DNA from: Trinickia mobilis
GTDB lineage: Bacteria > Pseudomonadota > Gammaproteobacteria > Burkholderiales > Burkholderiaceae
Direction of reading: 5' to 3'
DNA length: 64,000 nt
Assembly (NCBI RefSeq): GCF_017315705.1
Contig: NZ_JAFLRF010000030.1
Span: 1 to 64,000, forward strand
Of the stretch, positions 18,795 through 44,731 are shown piece by piece (within the stretch, counting starts at the first letter, position 1; each line of letters starts with the position of its first letter). Position numbers and translations under genes: made by a program. The notes beneath the pieces were generated by a model, which worked only from the letters and a program-made list of their open reading frames with translations, was not told where the DNA came from and ran no database searches.

Positions 18795-20543
18795 TCAGGC
18801 TTGATCGATATTCTGAGCCGTCGAAGAAGCGGCCACGGAAGCAAGAACGACCTGTGACTGACCACTACGCTTTGCCAGCGCCATAGCCGCCAGGTAACCA
18901 AACGTGATCGCCGGTCCCAGCGTGATGCCTGCGCCGATGTAGTGACCGCCAACAGGCGAGTTCATGTCGTTGCCGCATGCAAAGATGCCGGGAATCGGAC
19001 GGTCGTTGCTGTCCAGGACTTCGCCGTTGGGGCCCGTCACGAGACCGCGGCTGGTGCCGAAGTCTCCCGGCATCAGCTTGACTGCATAGAACGGCCCGTG
19101 CTTGATGGGGCCGAGGCAGGGATTCGGCGCGTGAGACGGATCGCCCTTGTAGGTGTTATAGGCCGATGAGCCCTTGCCGAAATCCTCGTCGACGCCAGTT
19201 TGCGCGAAGTGGTTGTTGCGTGAGACGCTGCGCTCGAGTCCGGCGGCATCGATGCCTGCCTTGGCGGCGAGCTCCGCGAGTGTCTCGCCGCTATAGAGAT
19301 AGCCCGACTCCTCATAGCGACGCAGCGACATGCCCGGCAGGATGACGCCAATGCCGTACTTCTTCACGGCTGCTGCGTCGACGACCAGAAACGCGGGGAT
19401 TGCGCCGGCGTCGAACATCCCCTGAGTGAAGGCGTGATACGACGCGGCTTCATTGGTGAAGCGGTTGCCTTCCTTGTTCACGGCAATGAAACCCGGCTTG
19501 GGCCGATCGAGCATGAAGTGGCCCCACAGCGTATTGCCTTTTTCGTTCTTGTATTGCGAGATCGGCACGTAGTAGCCCGTGTCGCGCGCGTTGTGATCGA
19601 GCCGGCCGCCGACTGAAAGGCCGAGTCGAATGCCTTCACCCACGTTGCTCGGCAAGCCGAGGCCGAGTTCGACCGTCGGCTGACGGGAATGCTCGCGTCG
19701 CATTTCGAGGTTACCGCTGTAGCCGCCGGTCGCGATAACGACACCGCGGTGTGCGCGTATGCGAGACGTGCGGCCATCGCGCGTGACTTCGGCACCGATC
19801 ACGGCACCATTGTTGGTGATGAGCCGCGTTGCGTGAGCGCCTCGCCAAACCGGAATCTGCTCATCGAGGATCGTCTTGTACAGGCGCGCGATGAGTGCAT
19901 TGCCGCCCACGAGGCGGGTGCCGCGATGATAGCTCAGGCGGTCTTTGCCGTAGCGCAGGAAGCGCTTCACGACATGCGCGAACGACTTGAACGAGCGCGT
20001 GAACGACAAGAAGTGATTCAAGTCCAGAAGGTCGAGCATCATGCCGCCAAATGGCGCGAATGCCGGCAGCGGTGCCCGCAGGTCCTTGAAGTGCGCACCG
20101 AGTTCACGCCCGTCGAACTCGAGCGGGGCGTGAGCCCGTCCGAACATGCCGCCATTGGACTCCGGATAATAGTCTGGATAATGGACCGCCATGACCTTGA
20201 GTTCGGAATGGCGGACCAGGTAGTCGAGTGCAACCCGGCCCTGGGTGATGTAGCTTTCCTGGAGCGGGCTACCCACGGTGGTGCCAACCGTTGCCGCAAA
20301 GTATCGACGCGCTTTCTCGAAGGAATCCTGGAAGCCCGCCTCCTGCATCGGTGCGCTATCGACAAACCACATCATGCCGACCGACCAGGCGGAGGTGCCG
20401 CCGACCTGATCCGTCTTTTCGAGCAGGAGCGGCTTGAGTCCTTCGTTCTTCGACACAATGGCCGCCGACATGCCGCCTGCACCCGCCCCAAGAATAATGA
20501 CATCGACCTCGAGATCCCAGCTTGCCGTCGTATCAGTACTCAT
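18795..20543 (-). CDS. FAD-dependent oxidoreductase, 3-ketosteroid-dehydrogenase / fumarate-reductase flavoprotein type
   Basis: The 582-residue flavoprotein has the FAD-binding start DVIILGAGAGGMSAAIV and the closing FAD loop GGHYIGAGITLGPAITFGYL typical of the KstD/fumarate-reductase group. GVVIATGGYSGNLEMR lies in between. Members remove or add hydrogen next to a carbonyl in a ring or at a C=C bond. It has its own regulon promoter (20736-20784) and is divergent from the second MarR gene. A second copy of its last ~30 codons survives at 35495-35582 behind the Fe-S subunit gene. It probably acts on a ring intermediate; the substrate is unknown. Confidence 0.85.
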   Translation of the reverse strand: MSTDTTASWDLEVDVIILGAGAGGMSAAIVSKNEGLKPLLLEKTDQVGGTSAWSVGMMWFVDSAPMQEAGFQDSFEKARRYFAATVGTTVGSPLQESYITQGRVALDYLVRHSELKVMAVHYPDYYPESNGGMFGRAHAPLEFDGRELGAHFKDLRAPLPAFAPFGGMMLDLLDLNHFLSFTRSFKSFAHVVKRFLRYGKDRLSYHRGTRLVGGNALIARLYKTILDEQIPVWRGAHATRLITNNGAVIGAEVTRDGRTSRIRAHRGVVIATGGYSGNLEMRREHSRQPTVELGLGLPSNVGEGIRLGLSVGGRLDHNARDTGYYVPISQYKNEKGNTLWGHFMLDRPKPGFIAVNKEGNRFTNEAASYHAFTQGMFDAGAIPAFLVVDAAAVKKYGIGVILPGMSLRRYEESGYLYSGETLAELAAKAGIDAAGLERSVSRNNHFAQTGVDEDFGKGSSAYNTYKGDPSHAPNPCLGPIKHGPFYAVKLMPGDFGTSRGLVTGPNGEVLDSNDRPIPGIFACGNDMNSPVGGHYIGAGITLGPAITFGYLAAMALAKRSGQSQVVLASVAASSTAQNIDQA

Positions 20544-20711
20544 AGCGCTTGTCCTGTTTGAGAAGTCCGGGAAGGTAAGTCGGGAATGGCAGCTCTGACT
20601 CGCAAAAATTCCAGTTGCCCCTGCGTGGTTCCGGCCAGCGGAGAGCTTGCACATCCGTTTTGCACATGCTGTATGATCATCACGAAACGGATTATCTTCA
20701 AAGAGATAATG

Positions 20712-20784
20712 CCATATAACATCGATTTATATGGGATGATGTGTTCTGGGGTAAACAAAGTCAAGAGATCCAGGGAATTCCCTG
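20712..20784 (-). promoter_or_regulatory. Regulon promoter A (flavoprotein gene)
   Basis: Read on the - strand: the perfect palindrome CAGGGAATTCCCTG (20771-20784), then TTGACT (20759-20764), a 17-bp spacer and CATCAT (20736-20741). Just beyond lies a perfect inverted repeat CCATATAA-N7-TTATATGG (20712-20734) at the expected transcription start. The upstream palindrome is centred 13.5 bp from the -35, as in sites B and E. Confidence 0.75.
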
Positions 20785-24919: not shown

Positions 24920-24983
24920 TCGATGTCCATCGAATAATGCTGGGTGGAATTAATAAAGTCAAGGAACCCAGGGAATGCCCTGG
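24920..24983 (-). promoter_or_regulatory. Regulon promoter B (BKACE operon)
   Basis: On the - strand: CCAGGG-AATG-CCCTGG type palindrome (24968-24983), TTGACT (24957-24962), a 17-bp spacer, CATTAT (24934-24939), and directly after it the perfect inverted repeat TCGATG-N2-CATCGA (24920-24933). Same order and spacing as promoters A and E. Confidence 0.75.
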
Positions 24984-30338: not shown

Positions 30339-31127
30339 CTATAGCGAGCGTTGCAGACGCCCGGCGGTTTCACGCAGCGCCGGCAGGAAGCTTTCCCGCA
30401 AGGTATCGATGGACACGCGCCCTGAAAATACGCTCACGCTCAGCGCCGCCTCGATCTGGCCGGCGCTGTTCTTCACCGGCACCGCCATCGCCGACATGCC
30501 GATTTCCAGCTCTTCGTCGCTGATCGCGTAGCCGTCCTCTGCCGCGCGCCGGATCGCCTTCAGCACCCCCTCGAGATTGGCCACTGTGCGAACGGTGAAC
30601 CGTTTCATGGGCACGCTTTCGAGGTGCGCGCGCGCCTGCTCTTCAGGCAGGCCGGCGAGCAGCACGCGTCCCGTGGCTGAGCAATAGGCGGGCAGGCGGC
30701 CGCCGAGCTTCACGCCCGTCGACACGATACGGACCGCCTCCGCACGTGCGATGAAAACCGCATAACCCTCGTCCAGCACGGCCAGCGAGACGGACTCCTG
30801 TAGCTTGTCGCGCGTGCTCGCCAGCAGGGGTTGCGCAATCTGCGGCAGCGACGACGTGCTGAGGTAGGCGCTACCCAGCCGGAGCATGCGCGGCAGCGGC
30901 GTGAAGAACTTGCCGTCGTGGGCGAGATAGCCGTGCTCGACGAGCGTCAGCAGGCAGCGCCGCGCTGCGGGGCGGCTCAGGTCAGCCAGATGCGCCGCGT
31001 CCGAAACGGTCATGCGCGTGGTGTTCGGACCGAACGCCTCGATGATGGCCAGCCCCTTGGCCAGCCCCCCCATGCCTTCCTTCGCGTGGGCCTGGGTTGT
31101 CCCGGCCTCATCCTTGACGGGCGACAT
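30339..31127 (-). CDS. IclR-family transcriptional regulator, divergent from the dioxygenase genes
   Basis: The 262-residue protein has the winged helix [20 protein letters not shown] and the effector motif [18 protein letters not shown] with [17 protein letters not shown]. It is close to the IclR protein at 29414. AGAGGAG precedes the ATG at 31127; starts at 31169 or 31208 are also open. It is divergent from the ring-hydroxylating dioxygenase and is its likely regulator. Confidence 0.85.
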
Positions 31128-31179
31128 AGCGCGCTCCTCTGTATTGACAGGGCTTTTGATGGGTGTCATATTGGGTCGT

Positions 31180-31200
31180 ATATCGAACAATGTCCGATAT
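31180..31200. promoter_or_regulatory. Inverted repeat between IclR and dioxygenase genes
   Basis: ATATCG-N9-CGATAT lies in the divergent control region, 53 bp before the IclR start and 91 bp before the dioxygenase start. It is a plausible IclR site or shared operator. Confidence 0.45.
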
Positions 31201-31290
31201 TCGAACACACCTGGGAGGGGCTGTCAACTGCAGTCCCGCCGAGGCCCCGGTAATCGGCGTTCGGCAAACGCCCTCTACGGAGTCAGCAAC

Positions 31291-32562
31291 TTGAACATCA
31301 TCCCCATCCAGCCGGCGCGCCGCGCCAGCATCGAGTGGCCCGCCGAGGGCGTCACGCGCGTGCCCTATGTGCTGTTCCAGAGTGACGAAGTCTATGCGGA
31401 CGAGCAGGAAGCGATATTTCGTGGTCCGAACTGGAGCTATCTGTGCCTCGAAGCGGAGCTGCCGAATCCGGGTGACTTCCGCAGCACGTTCATCGGCGAT
31501 GCTCCCGTGGTGGTCACGCGCGACACGGACGGCGAGCTCTATGCGTTCGAAAACCGCTGCGCGCATCGCGGCGCGATGGTTTGCCTGGAAAACGCGGGCA
31601 ACGCGAAGGACTTCAATTGCGTCTACCATGCCTGGACGTACAGCCTGCAGGGCGATCTGCTCGGCGTCGCGTTCCGGGACGGCATCAACGGCCAGGGCGG
31701 CATGAAGGAAGACTTCTGTCTCGGCGATCACGGCTTGCGCAAGCTGCGCGTTGCGACGCTGCACGGTTTGGTGTTCGGCAGCTTCTCCGACGACGTGCCG
31801 CCGCTCGACGAATACCTTGGCGAGGAGATCGTCGAACGCATTGCGCGCGTGCTCGAAAACCGCACGTCCGTCGTACTCGGCCGCTTCACGCAAATGCTGC
31901 CGAACAACTGGAAACTTTATTTCGAGAACATTAAGGATTCCTATCATGCTAGCATCCTGCATCTGTTCTTCACGACTTTCCAGTTGAACAAGCTGTCGCA
32001 GCGCGGCGGCATCATCGTCGACCCCAGCGGCGGGCATCACGTCAGTTATTCAGCAGTCGATCACGCGGCTGAAGCGGCGACGCAGACGGCCACGAAGGAC
32101 TACGCGGCCCAGAACATCCGCTCGGAGAGCGGCCACCGCCTCGAAGATACCTCGGTGCTCGCGGGCACCGACGAGTTCGGCGACGGCATCACCCTGCAGA
32201 TTCTTTCAGTCTTTCCTGGCTTCGTGCTCCAGCAGATCCAGAACGCCATCGCGGTGCGCCAGATCCTGCCGCGCGGCGCGCGCCGGACCGAACTGAACTG
32301 GATCTATCTCGGCTTCGAGGACGATACGCCCGAGTTGCGGGAAATGCGTCTGCGCCAGGCGAACCTCGTGGGCCCGGCCGGGTACGTCTCGATGGAGGAC
32401 GGCTGCGTAGGTGGCTTCGTGCAGCGCGGCATCGACGGGGCAAGCGATGCACGCTCGGTGATCGAGATGGGCGGCGATGGCACGACCAGCAGCGCGAGCC
32501 GCGTGACGGAAGCCTCGATTCGCGGCTTCTGGAAGGCCTACCGTAACGCAATGGGATATTGA
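31291..32562 (+). CDS. Aromatic ring-hydroxylating dioxygenase, alpha (Rieske) subunit
   Basis: The 423-residue protein binds a Rieske cluster through Cys90-x-His92 (CAHRG) and Cys110-x2-His113 (CVYHAW), with 17 residues between. It holds mononuclear iron through [13 protein letters not shown] (Asp216, His219, His224). It adds O2 to an aromatic ring with electrons from the reductase. I place the start at TTG 31291, with GGAG at 31279 as its ribosome site; upstream sequence in this frame lies inside the divergent IclR gene. The beta subunit follows after 2 bp. The benzoate/anthranilate-type arrangement alpha-beta-reductase is clear; the substrate is not. Confidence 0.9.
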
Positions 32563-32564
32563 CG

Positions 32565-33035
32565 ATGACGCAGGACATCCACCAACTGATCGCCCGTGCG
32601 CAGGCCGAATACGTGCGCTGCATCGACGACGGCGACCTCGGGCAGTGGCCCGAGTTCTTCACCACGTCGTGCGTCTACAGGGTCACGACCGCCGACAACC
32701 ATCGCCGCGGCCTCGTGGGCAGCATGATCTACGCGGCCTCGCACGGCATGCTGGTCGACCGGGTCGCGTCGCTGCGCGACGCCAATATCTATGAACGGCA
32801 CGCCTACCGCCATCTGCTCGGGCAACCGTACGTGATCAGTGACGACGGCACCGAGGCGCGCAGCGAAACCTCGTTCATGGTCGCGCGCATCATGCGCGAC
32901 GGGACCACTGACCTGTTCGCGACGGGCCGCTATTGCGACGTGTACGTGCGCGACGAGGCAGGCGTGCGGTTGCGCGAGCGGGTCGTCGTGTCCGACAGCT
33001 CGCGTATCGACACGTTGCTCGCGTTGCCGCTATGA
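32565..33035 (+). CDS. Aromatic ring-hydroxylating dioxygenase, beta subunit
   Basis: The 156-residue protein has the cystatin/NTF2-like form of dioxygenase small subunits: DIHQLIARAQAEYVRCIDDG, then WPEFFTTSCVYRVTT, and the C-terminal strand VRLRERVVVSDSSRIDTLL. It packs against the alpha subunit in a hexamer. It starts 2 bp after the alpha stop. The reductase gene follows after 55 bp. Confidence 0.88.
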   Translation: MTQDIHQLIARAQAEYVRCIDDGDLGQWPEFFTTSCVYRVTTADNHRRGLVGSMIYAASHGMLVDRVASLRDANIYERHAYRHLLGQPYVISDDGTEARSETSFMVARIMRDGTTDLFATGRYCDVYVRDEAGVRLRERVVVSDSSRIDTLLALPL

Positions 33036-33090
33036 CGCCCGCGAACCTGCCTTCGACCGACATCTGCTGACAACGCATCGAGGTGATATC

Positions 33091-34077
33091 GTGGATTTTC
33101 GCATTTCCGTCGCTGACAGCGACATAACGTTCCCATGCACGGCCGGTGAAACCGTGCTCGACGCGGCCGAACGCGCCGGCTATGCGGTGCCGTACTCGTG
33201 CCGCAAGGGCGTCTGCGCGTCCTGCGAAGGACGCCTCGTGGCGGGCGAGGGGCGTTCTCCGGTGCAGGGCGCAGTGGCGGCGCCGGTCGAGCGCGCGCTG
33301 CTGTGCTGCCTGCGCCCCGACACGGACCTGACGATCGCGCCGCGTCGCATCGAGAAGCGCGACCCCATCGCGCGCAAGACGCTCGAGGCCTCCGTGTATC
33401 GCATCACGCAGCCGGCCGGCGATGTCAGCACCCTGCAGTTGCGGCTGCCCGTGGGCGTGCGCGCGAAGTTCAGTGCCGGCCAGTATCTGCAGATCGAGCT
33501 GGAGGACGGCACGCGGCGCAACTATTCGATGGCGAATGCGCCGCACGAAAACGACAGCGTGCAGCTGCACGTGCGCCACGTGCCCGGCGGCCGGTTTTCC
33601 GAAGCCGTGCTGGGCCGCCTCGCGAAGGGCGACAGGCTGCGCATTGAGCTGCCGTTCGGAGAGTTCATGCTGCGCGAAGGGTCGAACAGGCCTGCCGTGC
33701 TGCTCGCGACAGGCACCGGGTTCGCGCCGGTGAAGTCGATCGTCGAGGATGCCATCAAGCGCAAGCTCGAGCGGCCGTTGCATCTGTACTGGGGCGCGCG
33801 CCGCGCCGAAGACCTCTACCTCGCGTCACTCGCGCAGAAATGGCACGACAGTGGCCGCGTAAAGTTCGTGCCGGTGCTGTCCGAAGCCGACGAGGCGTGG
33901 ACGGGCCGGCGCGGCTTCGTGCACGAGGCCGTGCTCGAAGACTTCGGTTCGCTCGCGGGATATGAGGTGTACGCATGCGGCAATCCGTCGATGACGAGCG
34001 CCGCGCGCGACACCTTCGTGAAGGCCGGCTTGCCAGAAGACGACTTCTTCAGCGACGCGTTCGTTCACACCGGCTGA
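33091..34077 (+). CDS. Dioxygenase reductase: 2Fe-2S ferredoxin, FAD and NAD domains
   Basis: The 328-residue electron-transfer protein has a plant-type ferredoxin domain first (Cys37-x4-Cys42-x2-Cys45 ... Cys72), then the FAD motif RRNYSMAN near 143 and the NAD-binding ATGTGFAPVKSI near 207. This order is that of BenC-like reductases, which pass electrons from NADH to the Rieske centre of the alpha subunit. The start is GTG 33091, with GAGGTG just upstream; a longer frame exists but only shadows the beta subunit. Confidence 0.9.
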   Translation: MDFRISVADSDITFPCTAGETVLDAAERAGYAVPYSCRKGVCASCEGRLVAGEGRSPVQGAVAAPVERALLCCLRPDTDLTIAPRRIEKRDPIARKTLEASVYRITQPAGDVSTLQLRLPVGVRAKFSAGQYLQIELEDGTRRNYSMANAPHENDSVQLHVRHVPGGRFSEAVLGRLAKGDRLRIELPFGEFMLREGSNRPAVLLATGTGFAPVKSIVEDAIKRKLERPLHLYWGARRAEDLYLASLAQKWHDSGRVKFVPVLSEADEAWTGRRGFVHEAVLEDFGSLAGYEVYACGNPSMTSAARDTFVKAGLPEDDFFSDAFVHTG

Positions 34078-34330: not shown

Positions 34331-35329
34331 ATGGGAAATCACAAACTCCGGCTGTCTATCGCCGTTGGCAACTATGACCGCATGCGGCCGCTCATCGATG
34401 GGGATGTTCAGATCGACGGCGTAGATCCGGTCTTCATGCTGCAGGAACCCGAGGAGATCTTCTTTCGCGCATTTCGGCACGCCGACTACGACATCTGCGA
34501 GCTGTCGCTCAGCAGCTATTCTGTCAAGGTGGCTGCGGGCACGTCGCCCTATACCGCCGTGCCGGTCTTTCCGTCGCGGGCGTTCCGGCATACGTCGATC
34601 TACGTGCGTGCGGACCGGGGGATCAACAAACCTGAAGACCTGAAGGGCAAGCGCATTGGGGTACCCGAGTACCAGCTCACCGCCAATGTCTGGGTCCGGC
34701 TTCTCCTCGAAGAAGAGTATGGGGTGAAAGCGTCGGATGTGACCTGGGTGCGCGGCGGTTACGAAGATCCAACCCGAGTCGAGAAAATTTCGCTGAACCT
34801 GCCGGACGACATCAAGCTGGAAGACGCCCCCGAAGGTGAAACCATCTCCAGCCTTCTGGCGGAGGGGAAGATCGATGCCGTCATCGGTCCGCGCGCGCCG
34901 TCCTGCTTTGACCAGGGCCATCCGCAGGTTCGGTATCTCTTCGACGATCCACATAAGACTGCGGCCGATTGGTATGCACGCACCAAGCTGTTTCCGATCA
35001 TGCACACGCTCGGTGTCAGAAAGACGCTCACCGATCAGCATCCGTGGCTGCCGGCTGCACTCGTCAAGGCATTCGAGAAATCGAAGGCCCTCGCGCTCGC
35101 GCGCCTCAGCGAGACCGGTGCGACCAAGGTTACTTTGCCGTTCGTCGAAGACCAGTTGCGGGCGGCGCGCAAGCTGATGGGCTTCGACTTCTGGCCGTAC
35201 GGCTTCAAGGAAAACGAGCAGACTATCGACCGCTTCCTTGCACGCCATCATGCCGAGGGATTGTCCAGCCGTCGGCTTGAGGCGCGTGAGTTGTTCCATC
35301 CTGCCAGCCTCGAAAGCTTCAAGATCTGA
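34331..35329 (+). CDS. 4,5-dihydroxyphthalate decarboxylase-like protein
   Basis: The 332-residue protein has no signal peptide and matches the length and motifs of the Pht5 decarboxylase group, which shares the fold of type II periplasmic binding proteins: LRLSIAVGNYDRMRPLIDG, later DYDICELSLSSY and KGKRIGVPEYQLTANVW. AAGGAGAAGAGG precedes the ATG. The family removes a carboxyl group from 4,5-dihydroxyphthalate to give protocatechuate. Lying downstream of the dioxygenase genes, it may act on a dihydroxylated product of that enzyme. The family also contains many uncharacterised members, so the substrate is open. Confidence 0.75.
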   Translation: MGNHKLRLSIAVGNYDRMRPLIDGDVQIDGVDPVFMLQEPEEIFFRAFRHADYDICELSLSSYSVKVAAGTSPYTAVPVFPSRAFRHTSIYVRADRGINKPEDLKGKRIGVPEYQLTANVWVRLLLEEEYGVKASDVTWVRGGYEDPTRVEKISLNLPDDIKLEDAPEGETISSLLAEGKIDAVIGPRAPSCFDQGHPQVRYLFDDPHKTAADWYARTKLFPIMHTLGVRKTLTDQHPWLPAALVKAFEKSKALALARLSETGATKVTLPFVEDQLRAARKLMGFDFWPYGFKENEQTIDRFLARHHAEGLSSRRLEARELFHPASLESFKI

Positions 35330-35582: not shown

Positions 35583-36455
35583 TCAGTAGAGTAGTGTGCC
35601 GAGGTTAACGCTGCCAGTGCGGTCTCTTGTAGCGATAACCTTTTCCGTTCCGCCCTTTCTCACCCGCAGCTCGATACGCGAGGACGGCGCAATCAGCCCA
35701 GAGAATCGGAAGTCGCCAAAATGATCGGTCCTGGTTGTGCGCTCGCTTCCGTCGGAGGAGTCGTGCAGGACAACTTCGGCGCCCTCCAGATTGCGCAGTT
35801 GACCGCCACCCAGGTCCTCACAGACGTTGCCCGCCACCAGATGGCTGAGTGCGTCCTCCAGATTCTTGTAGAAGACGCGCGGCTTGGTGCCGAACTCGGG
35901 GCGAATGACTGACAGATGGTCTTTCTCGACCATCTCCGCCAATTGGGCGTCCGCGATATTCAACGCACGGATCGCCTTGGTGGGGCAGGCTTGCGCGCAG
36001 CGCGGCTCTTTCCAGCCGGCGTCGAGCAGGTGAGCGTCGAAGTTCCAGTTCTGCGGCACCTGTTCCTGTTCGTTCCATTCGATCATGCCGTAAGGGCATG
36101 TCTCGACCAGATCGCGCCGGCCATGCGACTTGACCGGGTCGATCACGACGACACCGTCCGGACGCTTGTAGATCGCACCGTCCGACGCCGCTTTGACGCA
36201 AGGCGCGTTGTCACAGTGATTACAGGTCTTCGGGATATAGGTGACATCGACGAGCGAGCCCTCTGCGCGAACGTGACGTTCGATCCGGATCGTTTCCAGG
36301 CCTTCCGGCGGATGAGGCGCGGAATAACCCGGAAAGGCATTGCCGCTGTACTCGTCCTTGGTCGCGAGGACGCAATTTCTGCAATTGATGCAGAGTGAAA
36401 CGTCAACGACCAGCGCCCAGCCGCTCACGCTGCTTTCTCGAGTTTCGAGTCCCAT
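35583..36455 (-). CDS. Fe-S (electron-transfer) subunit of a molybdenum hydroxytransferase-like enzyme
   Basis: The 290-residue protein has ferredoxin-type cysteine groups: CINCRNC (22, 25, 28), CNHCDNAPC (78, 81, 86), Cys120 in ETCPYGMIEW, and CAQACPTKAI (153, 157). After about residue 215 comes a beta-rich transthyretin/Cna-B-like domain (LEGAEVVLHDSSDG, DHFGDFRFSGL). This combination is that of the small subunit of pyrogallol-phloroglucinol transhydroxylase. GGAGGTGG precedes the ATG, which lies inside the large-subunit gene (31-bp overlap). Confidence 0.82.
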   Translation of the reverse strand: MGLETRESSVSGWALVVDVSLCINCRNCVLATKDEYSGNAFPGYSAPHPPEGLETIRIERHVRAEGSLVDVTYIPKTCNHCDNAPCVKAASDGAIYKRPDGVVVIDPVKSHGRRDLVETCPYGMIEWNEQEQVPQNWNFDAHLLDAGWKEPRCAQACPTKAIRALNIADAQLAEMVEKDHLSVIRPEFGTKPRVFYKNLEDALSHLVAGNVCEDLGGGQLRNLEGAEVVLHDSSDGSERTTRTDHFGDFRFSGLIAPSSRIELRVRKGGTEKVIATRDRTGSVNLGTLLY

Positions 36456-39382
36456 TTTTCCACCTCCACCCAGCAAGTATTAGGCATGATCCCATCTGCG
36501 GTCGGACTCATTTTTCCTCCTGGCGTCAGGAGATTGAGACAGCCTCCGCGATCGACCAGGCCCACCGAAGTCTCGATCAGGTCGAGCTCGGCACACGACT
36601 CGTTGCCGCGCGCCACTCCCGCCTTGACGAGCTGAGAAACGTCCACGGCGCAGATGACCGACGCCTGCGCGTTGTGGACCCGAACCAGATCGCCACGCTG
36701 TATGCCTCGAGTCTCGGCATCCCGGGCATTCATTCGCAAAACCCAATATCGATATCCGCCGACCTTCATCCGGTGTTCGTCGATCGTGCTGACGTGACTG
36801 TTCTTGCCATCCGCATGCGTATGGAAGCTGTAGACCGGATGGTTGGTCACGAGCTGCAGCGGAAACGGTTGTTTCGCGGTGCTGGCGCGGTTTATGTATC
36901 GGTTGACGGCCGGCCTTGCGGGATCGATCTGTTCGATGCGACGCAGGCTCGACGGCACGAACTCGAACTTGCCTGACTGCGTCGGCAGACCGTCGCCGAA
37001 GCCGGTCGAATACGTGCCCGGTAGCGGATTCGCTTCCGGCAGATCCTTCGGCCGTCCTTGCGCAAACCAGCGCATGTCGACAGGCGGCTGGTCGTCGTCC
37101 TTCGGCGGAGGCACGACGTGATAGCCCTTTTGCAGGAACTTCTTCCAGGTAGTCTGCTTGGGCAAGTCGGTTGAATTGAACGTCCGCTCGCACCAGGCCA
37201 ATTCGGAGCAACCGCCTTCCGAGAACATCCCGCCGTATCCGAGCCTTGTCATGATCTCCAGAAAGATCTGATAGTCCGACTTCGATTCGCCGAGGGGCTC
37301 GATGCATTTGTGCTGCATGATCACCATACGGTGATTGAGCTGGGTCTGTGCATGCTGGATGTAGCCGCCGCAGTTCGCCCATTCGGCGATGTCATCACGT
37401 TCGAGCGAGGTGCACGCAGGCAGGATGATGTCGGCAAACTGCGCCTCGTTCTCCATCCAGATCGACTGGTTGACGATAAATTCGAGCGATGAATGACGAT
37501 ACGCTTCAACGAGCCTGTGTGATCCGGGAGTTGTGCCGAACGATGACGAGCCGTAGCGGTACAGCATGTGAATGCGGGAATGGCCCGGTCTCGGATACGA
37601 GTATTGGGCAAATTGTCCCTCGACCGAGAAGCCGTCCCACGCGTAGCCCTCCGAGTGTCCCTGCACGATGGCTTCGGCCAGCCGTTGCCGGGGAACGGAC
37701 TGCTTCACCGGGTTGATCGTGATGATGTGAGGCATGCGGCAGTAGTTGTTGGCCGCGCTCGCAGTGTTGTTCAGATCGCCTGAGATTCCGCCCTCGGCGT
37801 ACCCGGGAAAGTAAAAATTGAGGTCCTGCGGTGCACCGATCTGCAAATTGCCGAAGTTGATCCCCGGTTTTCCCCACCCCTGCATTGCCATCATCATGAC
37901 GACGCTTCGCGCCCACTGCGCACCCGTCTCGGTTCGGCATGCACCACCAAAGCCTGCGCCCAGGCCGCCAGCCGCGAGATAAGTCTTCTTTGACGCCCAC
38001 AACCGCGCCAGACTGCGGACATCCTTCGCGGGCACACCGGTCTCCGCTTCTTGCCACTCCGGCGTCTTCGCTACGCCGTCCTCTTTCCCGAGGACGTACG
38101 CGCTCCATTCGTCAAAGCCCGTCGTATTCGATGCCACGTACTCCTTATCGTAGCTGCCGATAATCATCCATTCGTGCATGATGGCGATCGCGAGCGCCGA
38201 GTCGGAGCCGGGTTTGATCGGCAGCCATTTCCCGCCGAGGAACTGAGCGGAATGCGTCAGATACGGATCGATATGCACGAACTCGATGCCGAGCTGTTTG
38301 GCCCACAGCCGGCGCTCGGTGCCTTCGAAGCCGCCATAAACGCCGTTGGTCGATTCGGGATCGCTCGACCAGAACACGATGACCTCGGCATGCTGAAGGC
38401 AGTCCTCGGTCGTGCCGTAAAAGCTCGGCGTGCCCAGGCGCAGGCTGTTGCCGTAGTGATGCATGGCCCCCCAGTACCATCCTTCCCAACTGATCGGACT
38501 CGGTTCGACGCGGGTAAAGCCGATCAGGTTGCCGAAGCGCAGCATCGCGCTCAGGTAGTAGTTGATGTTCCCCCACTGGTGGTGTGCGCCCGTGACCATG
38601 GCTATGGCCCCGGGGCCGTAGTCCTTCTTCATGCGGCGGATTTCTCCGGCGACGATATCGAGCGCTTCGTCCCAGCTGATGCGTTCATAGCCCGAGATCC
38701 CGCGATTCTGGGGATTGCGTTCGCCATTGGGATCGAAGTCGACGCGCTTCATCGGATAGAGGAGGCGCTTTTCGGAGTACACGAGCGATTTGAGGGAGAG
38801 CGCGTGCGGGCTGACCGTCGCGCGCCGTGCCGGCGAAAGCCGGCGACCTCTTGCAGTGATACTCCAGCTCGGTCCGTCATCCTCTTCGAGATCGATGGGC
38901 GTGGTGCGAACGATCTTGTCGTCCTTGACGAAGACGAACACTGGGCCGCCATTGGTGAGTGTGACGTAACGCGTGGTTCCGTCCTTCATCGGCATGCCCT
39001 TGCGCCACGCAGCCGTCTTCATCGCGTTGACGATTTGGCCGAACCACACAAGCTTCTGGTCGCTTCCGCCCTGCGTGATTTTGAAATTTTTGAGCGCATC
39101 GATCAGGAACGCATGATCGGTTTTCGGCGCGAGCATCTTGTGCGCTGTCGCAACGTCCATGAAGACAAGCTCTGCGTCGGGCTCGGGGCACACTCCCCAG
39201 CGTCCGGACACGCTGCCGTCCTTGAAATGAAGCTGCCTCGCGAGACTGTTGTCTCTGAGCCGTAGCTGGATGACTCCGCTTCCTGTGGCGAGATGCGCGC
39301 GCACGGACGGAAACTTGCGGGCCGCAATACGCAGGACGGTCGGCATGAGCCAGAGGATAAGTACAAGGATTTTTCGCTGCAT
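36425..39382 (-). CDS. Molybdopterin oxidoreductase, pyrogallol hydroxytransferase (transhydroxylase)-like large subunit with extra N-terminal domain
   Basis: From about residue 200 the 985-residue protein follows DMSO-reductase-family transhydroxylases: RLLYPMKRVDFDPNGERNPQ, then RGISGYERISWDEALDIV, VFWSSDPESTNGVYGG and a C-terminal dinucleotide domain (RMNARDAETRGIQRGDLVRV). As in that group, the usual N-terminal 4Fe-4S cysteines are absent. Known members move a hydroxyl between phenols (pyrogallol to phloroglucinol) or hydroxylate resorcinol, mostly in anaerobes. The first ~115 residues are extra, with a hydrophobic start (ILVLILWLMP) and an SCP2-like pattern. Promoter D drives it; the Fe-S subunit gene overlaps its end. 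Confidence 0.82.
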   Translation of the reverse strand: MQRKILVLILWLMPTVLRIAARKFPSVRAHLATGSGVIQLRLRDNSLARQLHFKDGSVSGRWGVCPEPDAELVFMDVATAHKMLAPKTDHAFLIDALKNFKITQGGSDQKLVWFGQIVNAMKTAAWRKGMPMKDGTTRYVTLTNGGPVFVFVKDDKIVRTTPIDLEEDDGPSWSITARGRRLSPARRATVSPHALSLKSLVYSEKRLLYPMKRVDFDPNGERNPQNRGISGYERISWDEALDIVAGEIRRMKKDYGPGAIAMVTGAHHQWGNINYYLSAMLRFGNLIGFTRVEPSPISWEGWYWGAMHHYGNSLRLGTPSFYGTTEDCLQHAEVIVFWSSDPESTNGVYGGFEGTERRLWAKQLGIEFVHIDPYLTHSAQFLGGKWLPIKPGSDSALAIAIMHEWMIIGSYDKEYVASNTTGFDEWSAYVLGKEDGVAKTPEWQEAETGVPAKDVRSLARLWASKKTYLAAGGLGAGFGGACRTETGAQWARSVVMMMAMQGWGKPGINFGNLQIGAPQDLNFYFPGYAEGGISGDLNNTASAANNYCRMPHIITINPVKQSVPRQRLAEAIVQGHSEGYAWDGFSVEGQFAQYSYPRPGHSRIHMLYRYGSSSFGTTPGSHRLVEAYRHSSLEFIVNQSIWMENEAQFADIILPACTSLERDDIAEWANCGGYIQHAQTQLNHRMVIMQHKCIEPLGESKSDYQIFLEIMTRLGYGGMFSEGGCSELAWCERTFNSTDLPKQTTWKKFLQKGYHVVPPPKDDDQPPVDMRWFAQGRPKDLPEANPLPGTYSTGFGDGLPTQSGKFEFVPSSLRRIEQIDPARPAVNRYINRASTAKQPFPLQLVTNHPVYSFHTHADGKNSHVSTIDEHRMKVGGYRYWVLRMNARDAETRGIQRGDLVRVHNAQASVICAVDVSQLVKAGVARGNESCAELDLIETSVGLVDRGGCLNLLTPGGKMSPTADGIMPNTCWVEVEKWDSKLEKAA

Positions 39383-39793: not shown

Positions 39794-39822
39794 ATGATGT
39801 TGTATAGTGTAAACAAAGTCAA
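39794..39822 (-). promoter_or_regulatory. Regulon promoter D (Mo enzyme genes)
   Basis: On the - strand: TTGACT (39817-39822), a 17-bp spacer and CATCAT (39794-39799), followed by TCGATACAGGTTGA, a weak inverted repeat. Unlike the other five, the upstream GGGAATTCCC-type palindrome is not recognisable here (ACTCCCGGCTGAGG in its place), so this copy may be regulated differently. Confidence 0.65.
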
Positions 39823-39909
39823 GGACTCCCGGCTGAGGTGTGCCCTGACTACCATTTGCTCGTGGCCCGGAAATCTGCCCGGTTTGCCCATACATGGAGG
39901 AATAAGGGA

Positions 39910-40449
39910 ATGCCCAAATCGAATCCCGGCGTCGCCAAAGTAACTTTGGATCGCGAGCCACCAGCCGAGGCAGCCGCGAAGCTGTCGCCCGAACTATTTG
40001 ATGAGCGTGGCCGAACGGTGCCGTGGATGGCCAGGACGGTGCGACGGCTCTATGATGCGCTGGGCCAGAAAGTTCTCGATAGGGAAAACCTTGCCATTGC
40101 GTATTGGTATTACTTGCGCGTACTGGCCGAGCGCGGCGAGTTGAATCAGCTCGAATTAAGTAAGCGCGTGGGGATTGCCTCGACGACCGCAGTGCCGGCA
40201 CTAGACAACCTGGAAAAGCGCGGGCTGGTGCAAAGAGTCCGGGATCCTAAAGACCGAAGAAAATATTACGTCAGTCTTAAGGAGGAGGGTAGGCGCCTGG
40301 TCGACGACATCATGCCGGAGATCGCGGACTTGCATTCGACCTCGCTCGACGGAATTTCCCCGCGGGACATGCGGGTGTTCTGGAAGGTCGCGCACCAGAT
40401 CGAGAAAAACCTGATTGAGATGTCCAAGGACGATGCGGCCCTGGACTGA
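39910..40449 (+). CDS. MarR-family regulator, third paralog
   Basis: The 179-residue protein shares FDERGRTVPWMARTVRRLYD, RVLAERGELNQLELSKRVG, ASTTAVPALDNLEKRGLV and the wing DPKDRRKYYVSL with the two other MarR genes. GGAGGAATAAGG stands before the ATG. It is divergent from the Mo enzyme (promoter D) and upstream of the cupin promoter E, so it sits between two targets. Confidence 0.85.
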   Translation: MPKSNPGVAKVTLDREPPAEAAAKLSPELFDERGRTVPWMARTVRRLYDALGQKVLDRENLAIAYWYYLRVLAERGELNQLELSKRVGIASTTAVPALDNLEKRGLVQRVRDPKDRRKYYVSLKEEGRRLVDDIMPEIADLHSTSLDGISPRDMRVFWKVAHQIEKNLIEMSKDDAALD

Positions 40450-40542
40450 CTTCGAACGGGTGACACCGTCAAAACACACTGTCGCGAGGGCAGAACTTGG
40501 GAGATGTCGCGCCGCACAAGCACGCAGCGAGAGATCGGCTTG

Positions 40543-40602
40543 GGGAATTCCCTGGCGCTCTTGACTTGGTTTATTCTATTGCACATCATGCGATATCAAT
40601 CG
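40543..40602 (+). promoter_or_regulatory. Regulon promoter E (cupin and Gfo/Idh/MocA genes)
   Basis: Perfect GGGAATTCCC (40543-40552), TTGACT (40561-40566), a 17-bp spacer, CATCAT (40584-40589), then CGAT-N4-ATCG (40591-40602). The start codon of the cupin gene is 45 bp further on. Confidence 0.75.
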
Positions 40603-40646
40603 ATCGTTTGTGCGATGAACAACCTCGAAACCAAGGAGGTGGACAA

Positions 40647-41693
40647 ATGAGTGCCAAGCCGCAAGATGCGGGCTCGCCCCCGGTGCAACTCTGGAGCCGT
40701 GACGGATTCCAGGGGGCGCTGTCAGTTGTGACCCGCCAGACCTACGCGCCTGATTATCTTTCCGTGCAGGGGCCGCACGCGCCGCGGCGAGCCGTCCTTG
40801 ACCGCTTGACGCCTGACGATCTGGACGACCCTGAGGCGCTTCCGACCACCGTGGCGACTTCCAGGCTCGGCGTCAAACTGCATGTGTCGGGGCGGCGCAA
40901 GCCCATGCCGTACGTGGTGCGCAATGTCGAAGCGGACGAGATTCATTTCATCCAATCCGGCACGGTCAGGTTCGAAACGGACGTGGGCTGTCTCACCGCA
41001 ACGGAAGGGGACTTCGTCTGCATTCCCCGGGCCGTCGCGTATCGCTATGCGCCAGCGGGCGATGCCATGCGAAGCATCATCGTCGAGAGTCCTTCGGCCC
41101 TGAAGCTCGCGCCGCCTGCGCCAAGCGGCCTGCTCAACGTTGCGCGGGATCTGAAGTATGCCGAGATCGACTCCAGCATGCCGGCCGGCGGCCCGACGCG
41201 ACTGGTGCTGAAAACCCTCGACCCCGAGAACACGGTCTTCACGATGCCGCATGATCCGCTTGCGCTTGGCGTGCACTTGTCGGAGTCCGTTCCGGTGTGG
41301 AAGCTGAATCTGGCCAATATCCAGGTTCACGCCTACCTGCCTGAGGGTGGTCCGCCCAGCCAGTTTCTGTCATCGAGCACGGGCGACCTGCTGATGTTCA
41401 ACCTCAGCGCGCGTCCCGGCGGGCGGCCACCGGTTCACATCAACGCCGACTTCGACGAAGTGATTTGCTACGCGCGGGGACCCGGCGCCTGGGGCGGGTG
41501 TGTGGAACCCGGCACGTTGACCTGTGTGCCAAAGGGGGTCATCCACCACGGGCCATCGGAGGACGTTCCCGAGGGCTATCAGGCCTGGTTGCTGGAAACA
41601 CGCGCGACGCTGCGTTGGACACCGAACGCCATTGCCGCTTCGGAGCTGATGGAGACGGGCCAATACAGGCCGCATCCGAGCGTGGGCAAATGA
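40647..41693 (+). CDS. Cupin dioxygenase-like protein, homogentisate 1,2-dioxygenase family
   Basis: The 348-residue protein is a two-cupin protein: a first barrel with ADEIHFIQSGTVRFETDVG and EGDFVCIPRAVAYRY, and a C-terminal barrel with PPVHINADFDEVICYARG and GTLTCVPKGVIHHGP. The spacing resembles homogentisate dioxygenase, where His and Glu of the second barrel hold the iron that opens a dihydroxylated ring. It is shorter than HmgA (~430 residues), so another hydroquinone-like substrate is possible. AAGGAGGTGG precedes the ATG. It is followed by the second Gfo/Idh/MocA gene. Confidence 0.72.
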   Translation: MSAKPQDAGSPPVQLWSRDGFQGALSVVTRQTYAPDYLSVQGPHAPRRAVLDRLTPDDLDDPEALPTTVATSRLGVKLHVSGRRKPMPYVVRNVEADEIHFIQSGTVRFETDVGCLTATEGDFVCIPRAVAYRYAPAGDAMRSIIVESPSALKLAPPAPSGLLNVARDLKYAEIDSSMPAGGPTRLVLKTLDPENTVFTMPHDPLALGVHLSESVPVWKLNLANIQVHAYLPEGGPPSQFLSSSTGDLLMFNLSARPGGRPPVHINADFDEVICYARGPGAWGGCVEPGTLTCVPKGVIHHGPSEDVPEGYQAWLLETRATLRWTPNAIAASELMETGQYRPHPSVGK

Positions 41694-41783: not shown

Positions 41784-42887
41784 ATGAATAAACGCTTTCG
41801 AGTGGGAATCGTGGGAGTGAGCACGGAGCGCCGCGGTTGGGGTACGACAGCGCATATTCCTGCATTGCGTGCGCTGTCCGACGTATTCGAGACCGCTGGG
41901 GTGGCAAACACGAGTCTCGCGAGCGCAAAGGCGGCCGCCGCTGCCTTTAGCATTCCGCGCGCGTTCGAGAACGTGGCGGAGCTCGTGGCCTCCCCGGATA
42001 TCGACGTCGTGGCCGTAACGGTCAAGGTTCCCCACCATCGTGAAGTTGTCGCGGCGGCTTTGGCGGCGGGCAAGCATGTCTACTGTGAGTGGCCGCTCGG
42101 CAACGGCCTTGCGGAAGCGATCGAGCTTGCAGGCCTCGCGAGGCTGAGCAAGGCACGGGCAGTGGTGGGCACCCAGGCCACCGCGTCGCCCGAAGTCGAA
42201 CTCGTGCGCAAGCTCGTGGCTGACGGATACGTGGGCGAAGTGTTGTCATCGACCTACCTTGGCAGCGGTCCTACCTGGAATGACGAAGTCACGCGGGGCG
42301 ACTCCTACGTCATGGATTCGCGCACCGGCGCAACCCTGCTGTCGATCATTGGCGGGCATGCACTTGCTGCGGTGCAAAGTGTGCTCGGCCCCGTCGACGA
42401 GGTGCAGGGCGTGCTGTCGCAGCGCCGCAAGACCGTGCGCATCGTCGAGACGGGCGACACAATCCCGATGCAAACACCCGATCATGTGATGGTCAATGCC
42501 GTTTTGAAGTCGGGTGCACCGTTGTCGCTGGAGCTTCGCGGTGGCCTGCCGCGCGGCACGCAACTGCTGTGGGAGATCAACGGAACGCTGGGCGATCTGC
42601 GCATTACCGCGGCGCATGACCAGTTTCCCGTGATCAATATCGCGCCATTGCGCGTGGAGGCTGGCCGCAAGGGTGAGCAGGGGTATCGCGAGGTTGAGGC
42701 AGCGAAGTCCGATTTCGTGGATACGGTCATAGCGCGAAATGTGGCGGCCATCTATCGGCAGATGGCCCGGGACCTGGTTCACGGAACCCGCACTGCCCCT
42801 GATTTTGATGACGCGGTAGCCCTTCATAGGGTGATTGATGCCATTGAGCGGTCAGATCAGACACGCAAGCGGGTGCGAATCGACTAA
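41784..42887 (+). CDS. Gfo/Idh/MocA-family oxidoreductase, second paralog
   Basis: The 367-residue protein has FRVGIVGVSTERRGWGTTAH as its NAD(P)-binding start and VYCEWPLGNGLAEAIELAGL in the EKP position, like its paralog at 21940. The two align along nearly their whole length, including TPDHVMVNAVLKSGAPLSL against TPDHLMANAILSSGAPLSL. It lies 90 bp after the cupin gene in the promoter E operon. The missing catalytic lysine in both copies points to a shared, unusual chemistry or to a related subfamily. Confidence 0.85.
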   Translation: MNKRFRVGIVGVSTERRGWGTTAHIPALRALSDVFETAGVANTSLASAKAAAAAFSIPRAFENVAELVASPDIDVVAVTVKVPHHREVVAAALAAGKHVYCEWPLGNGLAEAIELAGLARLSKARAVVGTQATASPEVELVRKLVADGYVGEVLSSTYLGSGPTWNDEVTRGDSYVMDSRTGATLLSIIGGHALAAVQSVLGPVDEVQGVLSQRRKTVRIVETGDTIPMQTPDHVMVNAVLKSGAPLSLELRGGLPRGTQLLWEINGTLGDLRITAAHDQFPVINIAPLRVEAGRKGEQGYREVEAAKSDFVDTVIARNVAAIYRQMARDLVHGTRTAPDFDDAVALHRVIDAIERSDQTRKRVRID

Positions 42888-43720: not shown

Positions 43721-43786
43721 AGGGAGATTCCCTAGGGCTCTTGACTTTGTTCATTCCACAACACATCATTCGATATACATCAATCG
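43721..43786 (+). promoter_or_regulatory. Regulon promoter F (ABC importer operon)
   Basis: AGGGA-N3-TCCCT (43721-43733), TTGACT (43741-43746), a 17-bp spacer, CATCAT (43764-43769), then CGAT-N8-ATCG (43771-43786). It stands ~550 bp before the broken binding-protein gene, a long leader in which I see no other gene. Confidence 0.72.
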
Positions 43787-44324: not shown

Positions 44325-44715
44325 ATGTTCGACTCGCTTAAGTCCTGGCTGACTGGCACGCGAAACACGGAAGACCTGCGCGAATTCACGAAGGCCGCCT
44401 TCGAAAGGAATGAGGCCCGTGCAGCGTGCCGATCCGGCGGCGCATTCGCGAAGATTGCCACGGTATTTGGTGCCTGCGCCATCGGCACGGCCGCCTATGC
44501 GGCCGGCGACTCCGTGACCAACCATCAAGGCGACATCACGCCGATTAGCGGCCTATCAGGGAACGGCAGACAAGGAGTCGCCGTCGATTCTGCCCGTCGT
44601 CTAGGCAGACGGCGCCACGGGCCTCGATCCGAAGTGCGATTCGTCCGCTTCGCCCGCCGCCGACCTCACCCCCGCACTTCCTTCCAAGAAGCTCAAGGAA
44701 GTATTTGCACAGTAA
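44325..44715 (+). pseudogene. ABC substrate-binding protein gene with internal deletion
   Basis: The start encodes an export region (KIATVFGACAIGTAAYAAGD) and SVTNHQGDITPI, matching the mature start of the binding protein at 25352 (SITNHQGDITPL). At about 44545 it jumps, in another frame, to AAYQGTADKESPSILP, and after an in-frame stop to GLDPKCDSSASPAADLTPAL, then KKLKEVFAQ: the C-terminus of the same protein. About 300 codons are missing. The stop is 16 bp before the ATPase gene. It cannot make a working binding protein. Confidence 0.85.
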
Positions 44716-44731
44716 CTCTTCGAGACGAATC

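Follow-up and report, generated by a model that had tools for sequence, protein, structure and literature searches.

The window analysed here is a 64,000-nucleotide stretch of Trinickia mobilis DNA (contig NZ_JAFLRF010000030.1, positions 1 to 64,000), and this report concerns a two-subunit molybdenum enzyme encoded in it, related to pyrogallol-phloroglucinol transhydroxylase (TH) and to the resorcinol hydroxylase large subunit RhL. The two genes, and the parts of the large subunit on which the argument turns, are the following.

36425..39382, minus strand: large subunit of the molybdenum-bis(pyranopterin guanine dinucleotide) type, 985 aa, RhL/TH family, clade A (defined below)
35583..36476, minus strand: small Fe-S subunit, reading frame from TTG with a likely ATG start at 36455, overlapping the end of the large-subunit gene
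38972..39382, minus strand: N-terminal domain of predicted SCP2 fold, residues 1-137, an amphipathic helix (residues 2-23) followed by β-sheet and helices
38582..38584, minus strand: His267, equivalent to TH His144 and kept; the preceding residue is Ala266 (TH Ser143)
38489..38494, minus strand: Ile297-Ser298, equivalent to TH Asp174-Ser175; the Mo-ligand serine is kept and its acidic neighbour is replaced by Ile

The large-subunit open reading frame (ORF) has an ATG start and a single stop, in agreement with the coordinates and the 985-residue size given by the original prediction, which had named no strand; the strand is minus. The protein matches the Pfam families PF21423 (AhtL-like_1st, 96.4 bits against a cut-off of 27), PF00384 (Molybdopterin, 118.9 bits against 24) and PF01568 (Molydop_binding, 48.6 bits against 26.8), and its top solved structure is 4v4c_A, the TH large subunit (E 9.9e-275, residues 138-979). 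Over the core (residues 138-985) it is 50.3% identical to TH and 65.9% identical to L046, an RhL-type protein encoded on plasmid pLuFRes1 of Aromatoleum anaerobium LuFRes1. The domain set, the Mo-ligand serine and the neighbouring TH-type Fe-S subunit place the enzyme in the RhL/TH family of the dimethyl sulfoxide reductase superfamily. The proposed kinship of the core with TH and RhL was thus borne out by domain scores, by the 4v4c_A match and by a phylogeny of the core, and neither tree nor domains put the core in another molybdopterin family. The enzyme shares with TH the homologous core, the Mo-ligand Ser and the His, and a small subunit of 40% identity; TH, however, is a short form without the SCP2 domain, with Asp174 and with all 12 cluster cysteines, whereas the window enzyme has 985 residues and the SCP2 domain and lacks cysteines 4, 9 and 10. 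It is a variant of the RhL/TH family that differs from the characterised members.

Residues 1-137 have no counterpart in TH. The original prediction had counted about 115 extra N-terminal residues and guessed at an SCP2-like fold; the extra region is real, its length is about 137 residues instead, and the fold was upheld by structure prediction. An AlphaFold2 (AF2) model of the domain, predicted for the window protein alone, reached a pLDDT of 84.2 and a pTM of 0.73. Foldseek with this model gave 37 matches at E≤1e-3, all of them sterol carrier proteins, UbiJ-SCP2, alkylsulfatases or YjcS (the sterol-carrier match 3cnu is titled only AF_1534, the protein of 3bn8), and VIA-align superposed the model on human SCP2 with Z 13.0 and a root-mean-square deviation of 2.7 over 115 residues. 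The SCP2 domains of human MFE-2 (1ikt), UbiJ (6h6p) and alkylsulfatases (2cfu) share the fold (Z 12.7, 10.6 and 11.2, respectively), but are only 9-14% identical in sequence and are not fused to a molybdenum enzyme. The alkylsulfatase/YjcS matches, where listed by VIA-align, fall at the C-terminus of those proteins, in a domain of SCP2-like type. In a full-length AF2 model the same N-terminal elements recur, with block pLDDT values of 68-93 over residues 1-120. By sequence, Pfam SCP2 was the sole family matching the window N-terminus at E≤10, below threshold (12.7 bits against a gathering score of 21.3, E 0.16). In an alignment of 40 N-terminal regions, from the window and 39 of the 80 loci described below, 7 of the 40 members match SCP2 at E≤10 (best E 0.0018), and a profile built from these rows and searched by sequence found no SCP2 structure. 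From the models we confidently predict that residues 1-137 fold as an SCP2 domain, and the possibility that the N-terminal part does not fold as a domain was not borne out by the AF2 model.

Residues K98, G106, G129, G135 and R138 are invariant in the same 40-row alignment, and residues 1-137 are under purifying selection, with ratios of nonsynonymous to synonymous substitution (dN/dS) of 0.08-0.20 against 9 of the 16 clade A loci. A start-codon artefact as the source of the region was rejected, since the start region is kept across loci and dN/dS does not exceed 0.20.

The domain is not peculiar to the window gene. Using the window large subunit as query we kept the best 80 loci of 264 relatives, a choice that biases the share of long forms; 79 of the 80, L046 included, align from residue 1-8, the exception (L109) being cut by the contig end. 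Clade A denotes the 16 close relatives of the window gene among these loci (84-95% identity). The active-site alignment held 111 rows, three duplicates included, of which 27 (duplicates, fragments, near-identical sequences) were dropped before tree building. The tree built on the core alone has 84 rows and joins the 61 long forms in a single clade (local support 0.90); their sister group consists of TH and two short forms from Desulfobacterota-type genomes, and Desulfobacterota-type long forms branch first within the long-form clade. All 61 long rows align 130-137 residues with the 137 of the window, against 0-5 in TH and the two short forms. A PF21423 search, independent of the N-terminus, matched 10 of 297 genomes in the phylum of the Desulfobacula locus, with long frames of 989-1028 aa, short frames of 849-923 aa and three fragments, both forms sometimes in one genome. 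A domain unique to the window gene was therefore rejected, as was the earlier description of the domain as added to a transhydroxylase-like enzyme, because the region is present in the A. anaerobium protein and all long forms share a single clade. The simplest reading is that the domain was gained once, ahead of the spread into Pseudomonadota.

Within the long-form clade the window enzyme lies on a branch apart from the RhL group (L045, L046, L074), and together with Ile297 in place of Asp174 this sets it outside RhL proper. L046 is flanked by E1, E2 and E3 dehydrogenase genes and a sigma54 regulator; this fits the published resorcinol locus, and we take L046 to be RhL. Its host is an anaerobic resorcinol degrader. 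The Aromatoleum (Azoarcus) anaerobium enzyme RhLS resembles the window enzyme in its two-subunit build, in an N-terminal region 36% identical, in the core and in the loss of small-subunit cysteines 4, 9 and 10; it differs in Asp174 and in the dehydrogenase and sigma54 neighbours. A passage of PMC10100899 lists RhL as an electron-donating cytoplasmic hydroxylase of anaerobic respiration with a Ser ligand. The two-subunit enzyme of the window is probably cytoplasmic as well.

In the active site, the equivalents of TH Ser175, the Mo ligand, and of His144 are retained in 107 of 107 family rows. Position 174 (TH numbering) is Asp in 88 of them, Glu in 1 and Ile in 18, the Ile174 rows coming from the window, the other 16 loci of clade A, and L054; a Salipiger abyssi enzyme (L168, 68% identical) also has Ile174. 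Ser143Ala and Asn172Ser each occur in 18 rows, those of clade A and L054, and the Ile174 rows are monophyletic in the core tree (support 0.96). The Sphingobium metagenome-assembled genome of L054 (G485) has two PF21423 enzymes, one with Asp174 (L119) and one with Ile174 (L122), the latter showing the same active-site motif as L054. Because Asp174 of TH presumably contacts the substrate, the Ile174 branch probably has another substrate, and a neutral side chain at this position could tolerate a carboxylate. None of the open-access papers listed for TH and its active site gives the residue names.

The small subunit matches the TH small subunit 4v4c_B (E 2.5e-55), with a C-terminal CarboxypepD_reg-like match below its cut-off. 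In the TH subunit three ferredoxin-like motifs hold 12 cysteines (the printed stretch has 13); Cys4, Cys9 and Cys10 are Thr, Trp and Asp in the window. Among the 100 small-subunit rows recovered, some of which repeat one gene (L104/L166, L106/L151) and none of which comes from L050, L077, L086, L088, L102 or L153, all 75 from Pseudomonadota, with the window and L046 among them, lack these three cysteines together, and all 25 from Desulfobacterota-type genomes and TH have them. Cysteines 1-3, 5-8 and 12 are retained in all 100 rows, and cysteine 11 has drifted in 6 of those 75 from Pseudomonadota. The usual ferredoxin rule would make cysteines 4, 9, 10 and 11 the ligands of one cluster, so that the joint loss suggests that one [4Fe-4S] cluster has probably gone from the small subunit. 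In the core tree the lineage with the loss falls into a single clade (55 rows, support 1.0). The loss is linked to lineage and not strictly to aerobes, since L046 and L074 stem from anaerobic or selenate-respiring isolates.

The PF21423 domain is rare. At E≤1e-3 it was found in at least 2 of 398 genomes of the phylum (this genome and one below the cut-off), and a large-subunit relative (E≤1e-100) in at least 42 of 398 genomes of the same family, this one included; at least 13 of the 42 have a clade A copy (≥85% identity), and 7 of these 13 a second copy too. In the class sampled around a Novosphingobium locus at least 9 of 385 genomes have a relative, that of the locus included. All are lower bounds, the first pass having scored up to 16 candidates per genome for PF21423 in the phylum and 2 per genome in the family and class.

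Around the two subunit genes lie the following.

34331..35329, plus strand: relative of 4,5-dihydroxyphthalate decarboxylase, in convergent orientation to the small-subunit gene
39838..40449, plus strand: MarR-family regulator, divergent from the Mo gene and adjacent to it in 14 of 16 clade A loci
40497..41693, plus strand: two-cupin protein with a weak match to homogentisate 1,2-dioxygenase (3zds, E 5e-4), probably starting at 40647
41784..42887, plus strand: Gfo/Idh/MocA dehydrogenase
18795..20654, minus strand: FAD dehydrogenase, 3-ketosteroid-dehydrogenase-like
31012..34077, plus strand: Rieske oxygenase alpha and beta subunits and reductase, anthranilate-dioxygenase-like, below curated NCBIfam cut-offs

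Neighbours were counted at E≤1e-15 for window genes, or 1e-20 for those of L046 and of the second locus below, with half coverage, so that distant relatives are missed. Of the 16 clade A loci, 14 have a decarboxylase relative, a count that does not stand for 14 independent cases given their close kinship; L031, one of the two without it, is a 7.2-kb contig. A MarR relative occurs in 16 of the 16, a cupin in 9, a Gfo/Idh dehydrogenase in 8, an FAD dehydrogenase in 8 (within the fetched locus) and Rieske genes in 5. At the same cut, the 56 other loci of at least 12 kb have one decarboxylase relative and none of the remaining five. The decarboxylase relative matches PDB 9jp7 (E 1.7e-131), named 4,5-dihydroxyphthalate decarboxylase; the likeness is one of sequence and the substrate class of the neighbour is putative. 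According to a passage of PMC13040137, the enzyme so named works in the 4,5-dioxygenase route of phthalate.

The Rieske set and the two-cupin protein agree with the earlier mention of dioxygenase-type genes nearby. The Rieske genes stand on differing sides from locus to locus, and the two-cupin protein has no NCBIfam match at E≤1e-8. The FAD dehydrogenase resembles 3-ketosteroid and 4-oxocyclohexene-carboxylate dehydrogenases (below cut-offs) and has a second MarR gene next to it; the pathway may include a ring-desaturating step. A single ORF at 44705-47209 joins an ABC ATPase of two domains to a ribose-type permease. An Rfam scan of the window, covering riboswitches such as the Moco motif, gave no match at gathering score. 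The host had been called apparently aerobic, and this is supported by three COX1 matches over the cut-off and no NarG over the cut-off in its genome, where other anaerobic respirations, such as NapA, were not searched.

Several of these genes share a 29-bp promoter-like motif, TTGACTTNGTTNANNCNANNNNACATCAT, present in the window in four exact copies and one with three mismatches; shuffles expect 0, a figure that overstates significance, as the pattern was derived from the four window sites, and other loci are the better test. When position 9 is widened to R and up to 3 mismatches are allowed, the 8.0-Mb genome yields exactly these five sites, all on the contig of the window, and a reversed-pattern control over the same genome yields 0.

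39794..39822, minus strand: motif upstream of the Mo gene
40561..40589, plus strand: motif upstream of the cupin gene (cupin-Gfo/Idh pair)
43741..43769, plus strand: motif upstream of ABC transporter and porin genes
20736..20764, minus strand: motif between the FAD dehydrogenase and the divergent second MarR gene
24934..24962, minus strand: weaker motif, differing from the R form at 2 positions and from the G form at 3, ahead of a run of BKACE (beta-keto-acid enzyme), SnoaL and Gfo/Idh genes

With up to 4 mismatches allowed, the clade A loci hold 36 sites over 292 kb, and 64 other loci none over 1,058 kb. In 14 of the 16 clade A loci, whose Mo-gene promoters are related by descent, the motif precedes the Mo gene by 139-342 bp. 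Its ends resemble -35 and -10 boxes with a spacing of 17 bp, and no inverted repeat was found upstream of the Mo gene at the settings used. We read the motif as a candidate promoter/operator of a putative MarR-controlled pathway, and the five copies between 20736 and 43769 look like the marks of one catabolic regulon. The Rieske genes have no copy.

A second RhL relative is encoded in the same genome (C36:455413-458355, 60% identity); it has Asp174 and belongs to another group, clade B. In its locus (L167, 8402-12266) the neighbours are of extradiol-dioxygenase, FAA-hydrolase, acyl-CoA-ligase and OmpW types. Relatives of these occur near 33, 42, 35 and 22, respectively, of the 56 loci outside clade A that span at least 12 kb, and near 25, 26, 22 and 22 of them at ≥60% identity. 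Parts of the clade B arrangement return in many Burkholderia, Pseudomonas and Rhizobium loci. With extradiol-dioxygenase relatives near 33 of the 56, the pairing of a putative Mo hydroxylase with a relative of O2-dependent ring-cleavage enzymes recurs across loci. The original prediction, that an oxygen-independent hydroxylation may feed an oxygen-dependent ring opening, is thus plausible; it is better supported at the clade B copy than by the Rieske genes of the window, since these accompany the Mo gene in no more than 5 of the 16 clade A loci and carry no motif copy.

Taken together, we favour, with a probability of about one half, an O2-independent Mo hydroxylase of an aromatic, probably carboxylated, phenol, followed by decarboxylation and O2-dependent ring opening. 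A water-derived hydroxyl group would be placed on the phenol at the molybdenum centre, the electrons would leave via the small subunit, the linked decarboxylase relative would remove the carboxyl group, and the motif-sharing cupin protein might then open the ring with O2; the SCP2 domain would hold the substrate, or its hydrophobic part, near the core. This reading draws on the kinship of the core (50% to TH, 66% to L046) with the Mo-ligand Ser and His144 kept throughout, on a decarboxylase relative far commoner in clade A loci (14 of 16) than in the others (1 of 56), and on a motif that within the genome is confined to the window and that precedes the Mo gene in 14 of the 16 clade A loci. As a precedent, Thauera aromatica AR-1 reportedly hydroxylates 3,5-dihydroxybenzoate and then decarboxylates the product.

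Several observations weigh against it. The substrate class is putative, and a glycoside or cyclitol would likewise suit the two Gfo/Idh genes and the sugar-type ABC transporter of the putative regulon. The site upstream of the decarboxylase gene is only loosely motif-like, two clade A loci (L033 and L084) lack the motif in the 600 bp ahead of the Mo gene, and Salipiger, with Ile174, has neither a decarboxylase relative within the 39 kb fetched nor a motif site. The full-length AF2 model is poor overall (pLDDT 68.7) and gives no placement of the domain relative to the active site. Lastly, RhL acts on small, water-soluble resorcinol despite its SCP2 region, so the domain need not bind a lipid.

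The SCP2 domain might instead be structural, or might bind an electron acceptor such as a quinone rather than the substrate. UbiJ-SCP2 is among the structure matches, and the putative cluster loss raises the question of how electrons leave the enzyme; we regard this as rather unlikely, though it fares best among the alternatives. That the enzyme is a plain resorcinol hydroxylase, converting resorcinol and water to hydroxyhydroquinone ahead of aerobic cleavage, would agree with its 66% core identity to L046, the shared N-terminal region and the same small-subunit cysteine loss. We consider it improbable, in view of the contrasts with L046 at three positions (Asp174 to Ile, Asn172 to Ser, Ser143 to Ala), the branch separate from the RhL group, the lack of relatives of the L046 E1, E2 or E3 genes in 16 of 16 clade A loci, and a conserved decarboxylase relative that resorcinol would make superfluous. 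No greater weight is given to the idea that the family in aerobes acts on phenolic lipids such as alkylresorcinols, with the tail held by the SCP2 domain and the ring hydroxylated by the core. The amphipathic N-terminal helix, a fold nearest by Z to human SCP2 and MFE-2 domains, and the OmpW porin and acyl-CoA ligase beside the clade B copy would suit such substrates, but RhL with the same region uses plain resorcinol and relatives of these OmpW and acyl-CoA ligase genes occur in 0 of 16 clade A loci. Least probable is a reductase or redox-neutral transhydroxylase with a second polyphenol as co-substrate, as in TH: TH is in the sister group of the long forms and fewer Fe-S cysteines would matter less in a redox-neutral enzyme, but the window enzyme is on the RhL side, whose characterised member, in a passage of PMC10100899, oxidises its substrate as electron donor.

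Literature leads to the substrate of the favoured hydroxylase were dropped: the passages found on Mimosa root-exudate transcriptomes contained no such gene, and no title or abstract start on sorgoleone or alkylresorcinol catabolism concerned this enzyme. Paraburkholderia oxyphila (L031), which is reported to degrade catechin, is a lead only. Among the papers listed in a search of the open-access literature, which did not take in the original RhL and TH papers, none showed an SCP2 domain in such a molybdenum enzyme; the domain or the cluster loss may already be in print in those originals.

A wider and more tentative proposal, which we hold to be possible rather than probable, is that of a large unrecognised subfamily of SCP2-Mo hydroxylases with a reduced Fe-S chain, with which aerobes would hydroxylate with water and cleave with O2, the SCP2 domain presenting a hydrophobic substrate and the Ile174 branch representing a new substrate class for Mo enzymes. 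The Ile174 branch, the concerted loss of cysteines and the locally confined motif add to the interest of the locus, which the sharing of the SCP2 domain with RhL lowers somewhat. An SCP2 domain in a Mo enzyme, together with that cysteine loss, raises questions about the cargo of the domain and the exit of the electrons. RhL/TH enzymes have been described as chemistry of anaerobes, and here their relatives lie near oxygenases in a host with terminal oxidases; if they work in air, water-dependent ring hydroxylation would be an alternative to monooxygenases in such bacteria.

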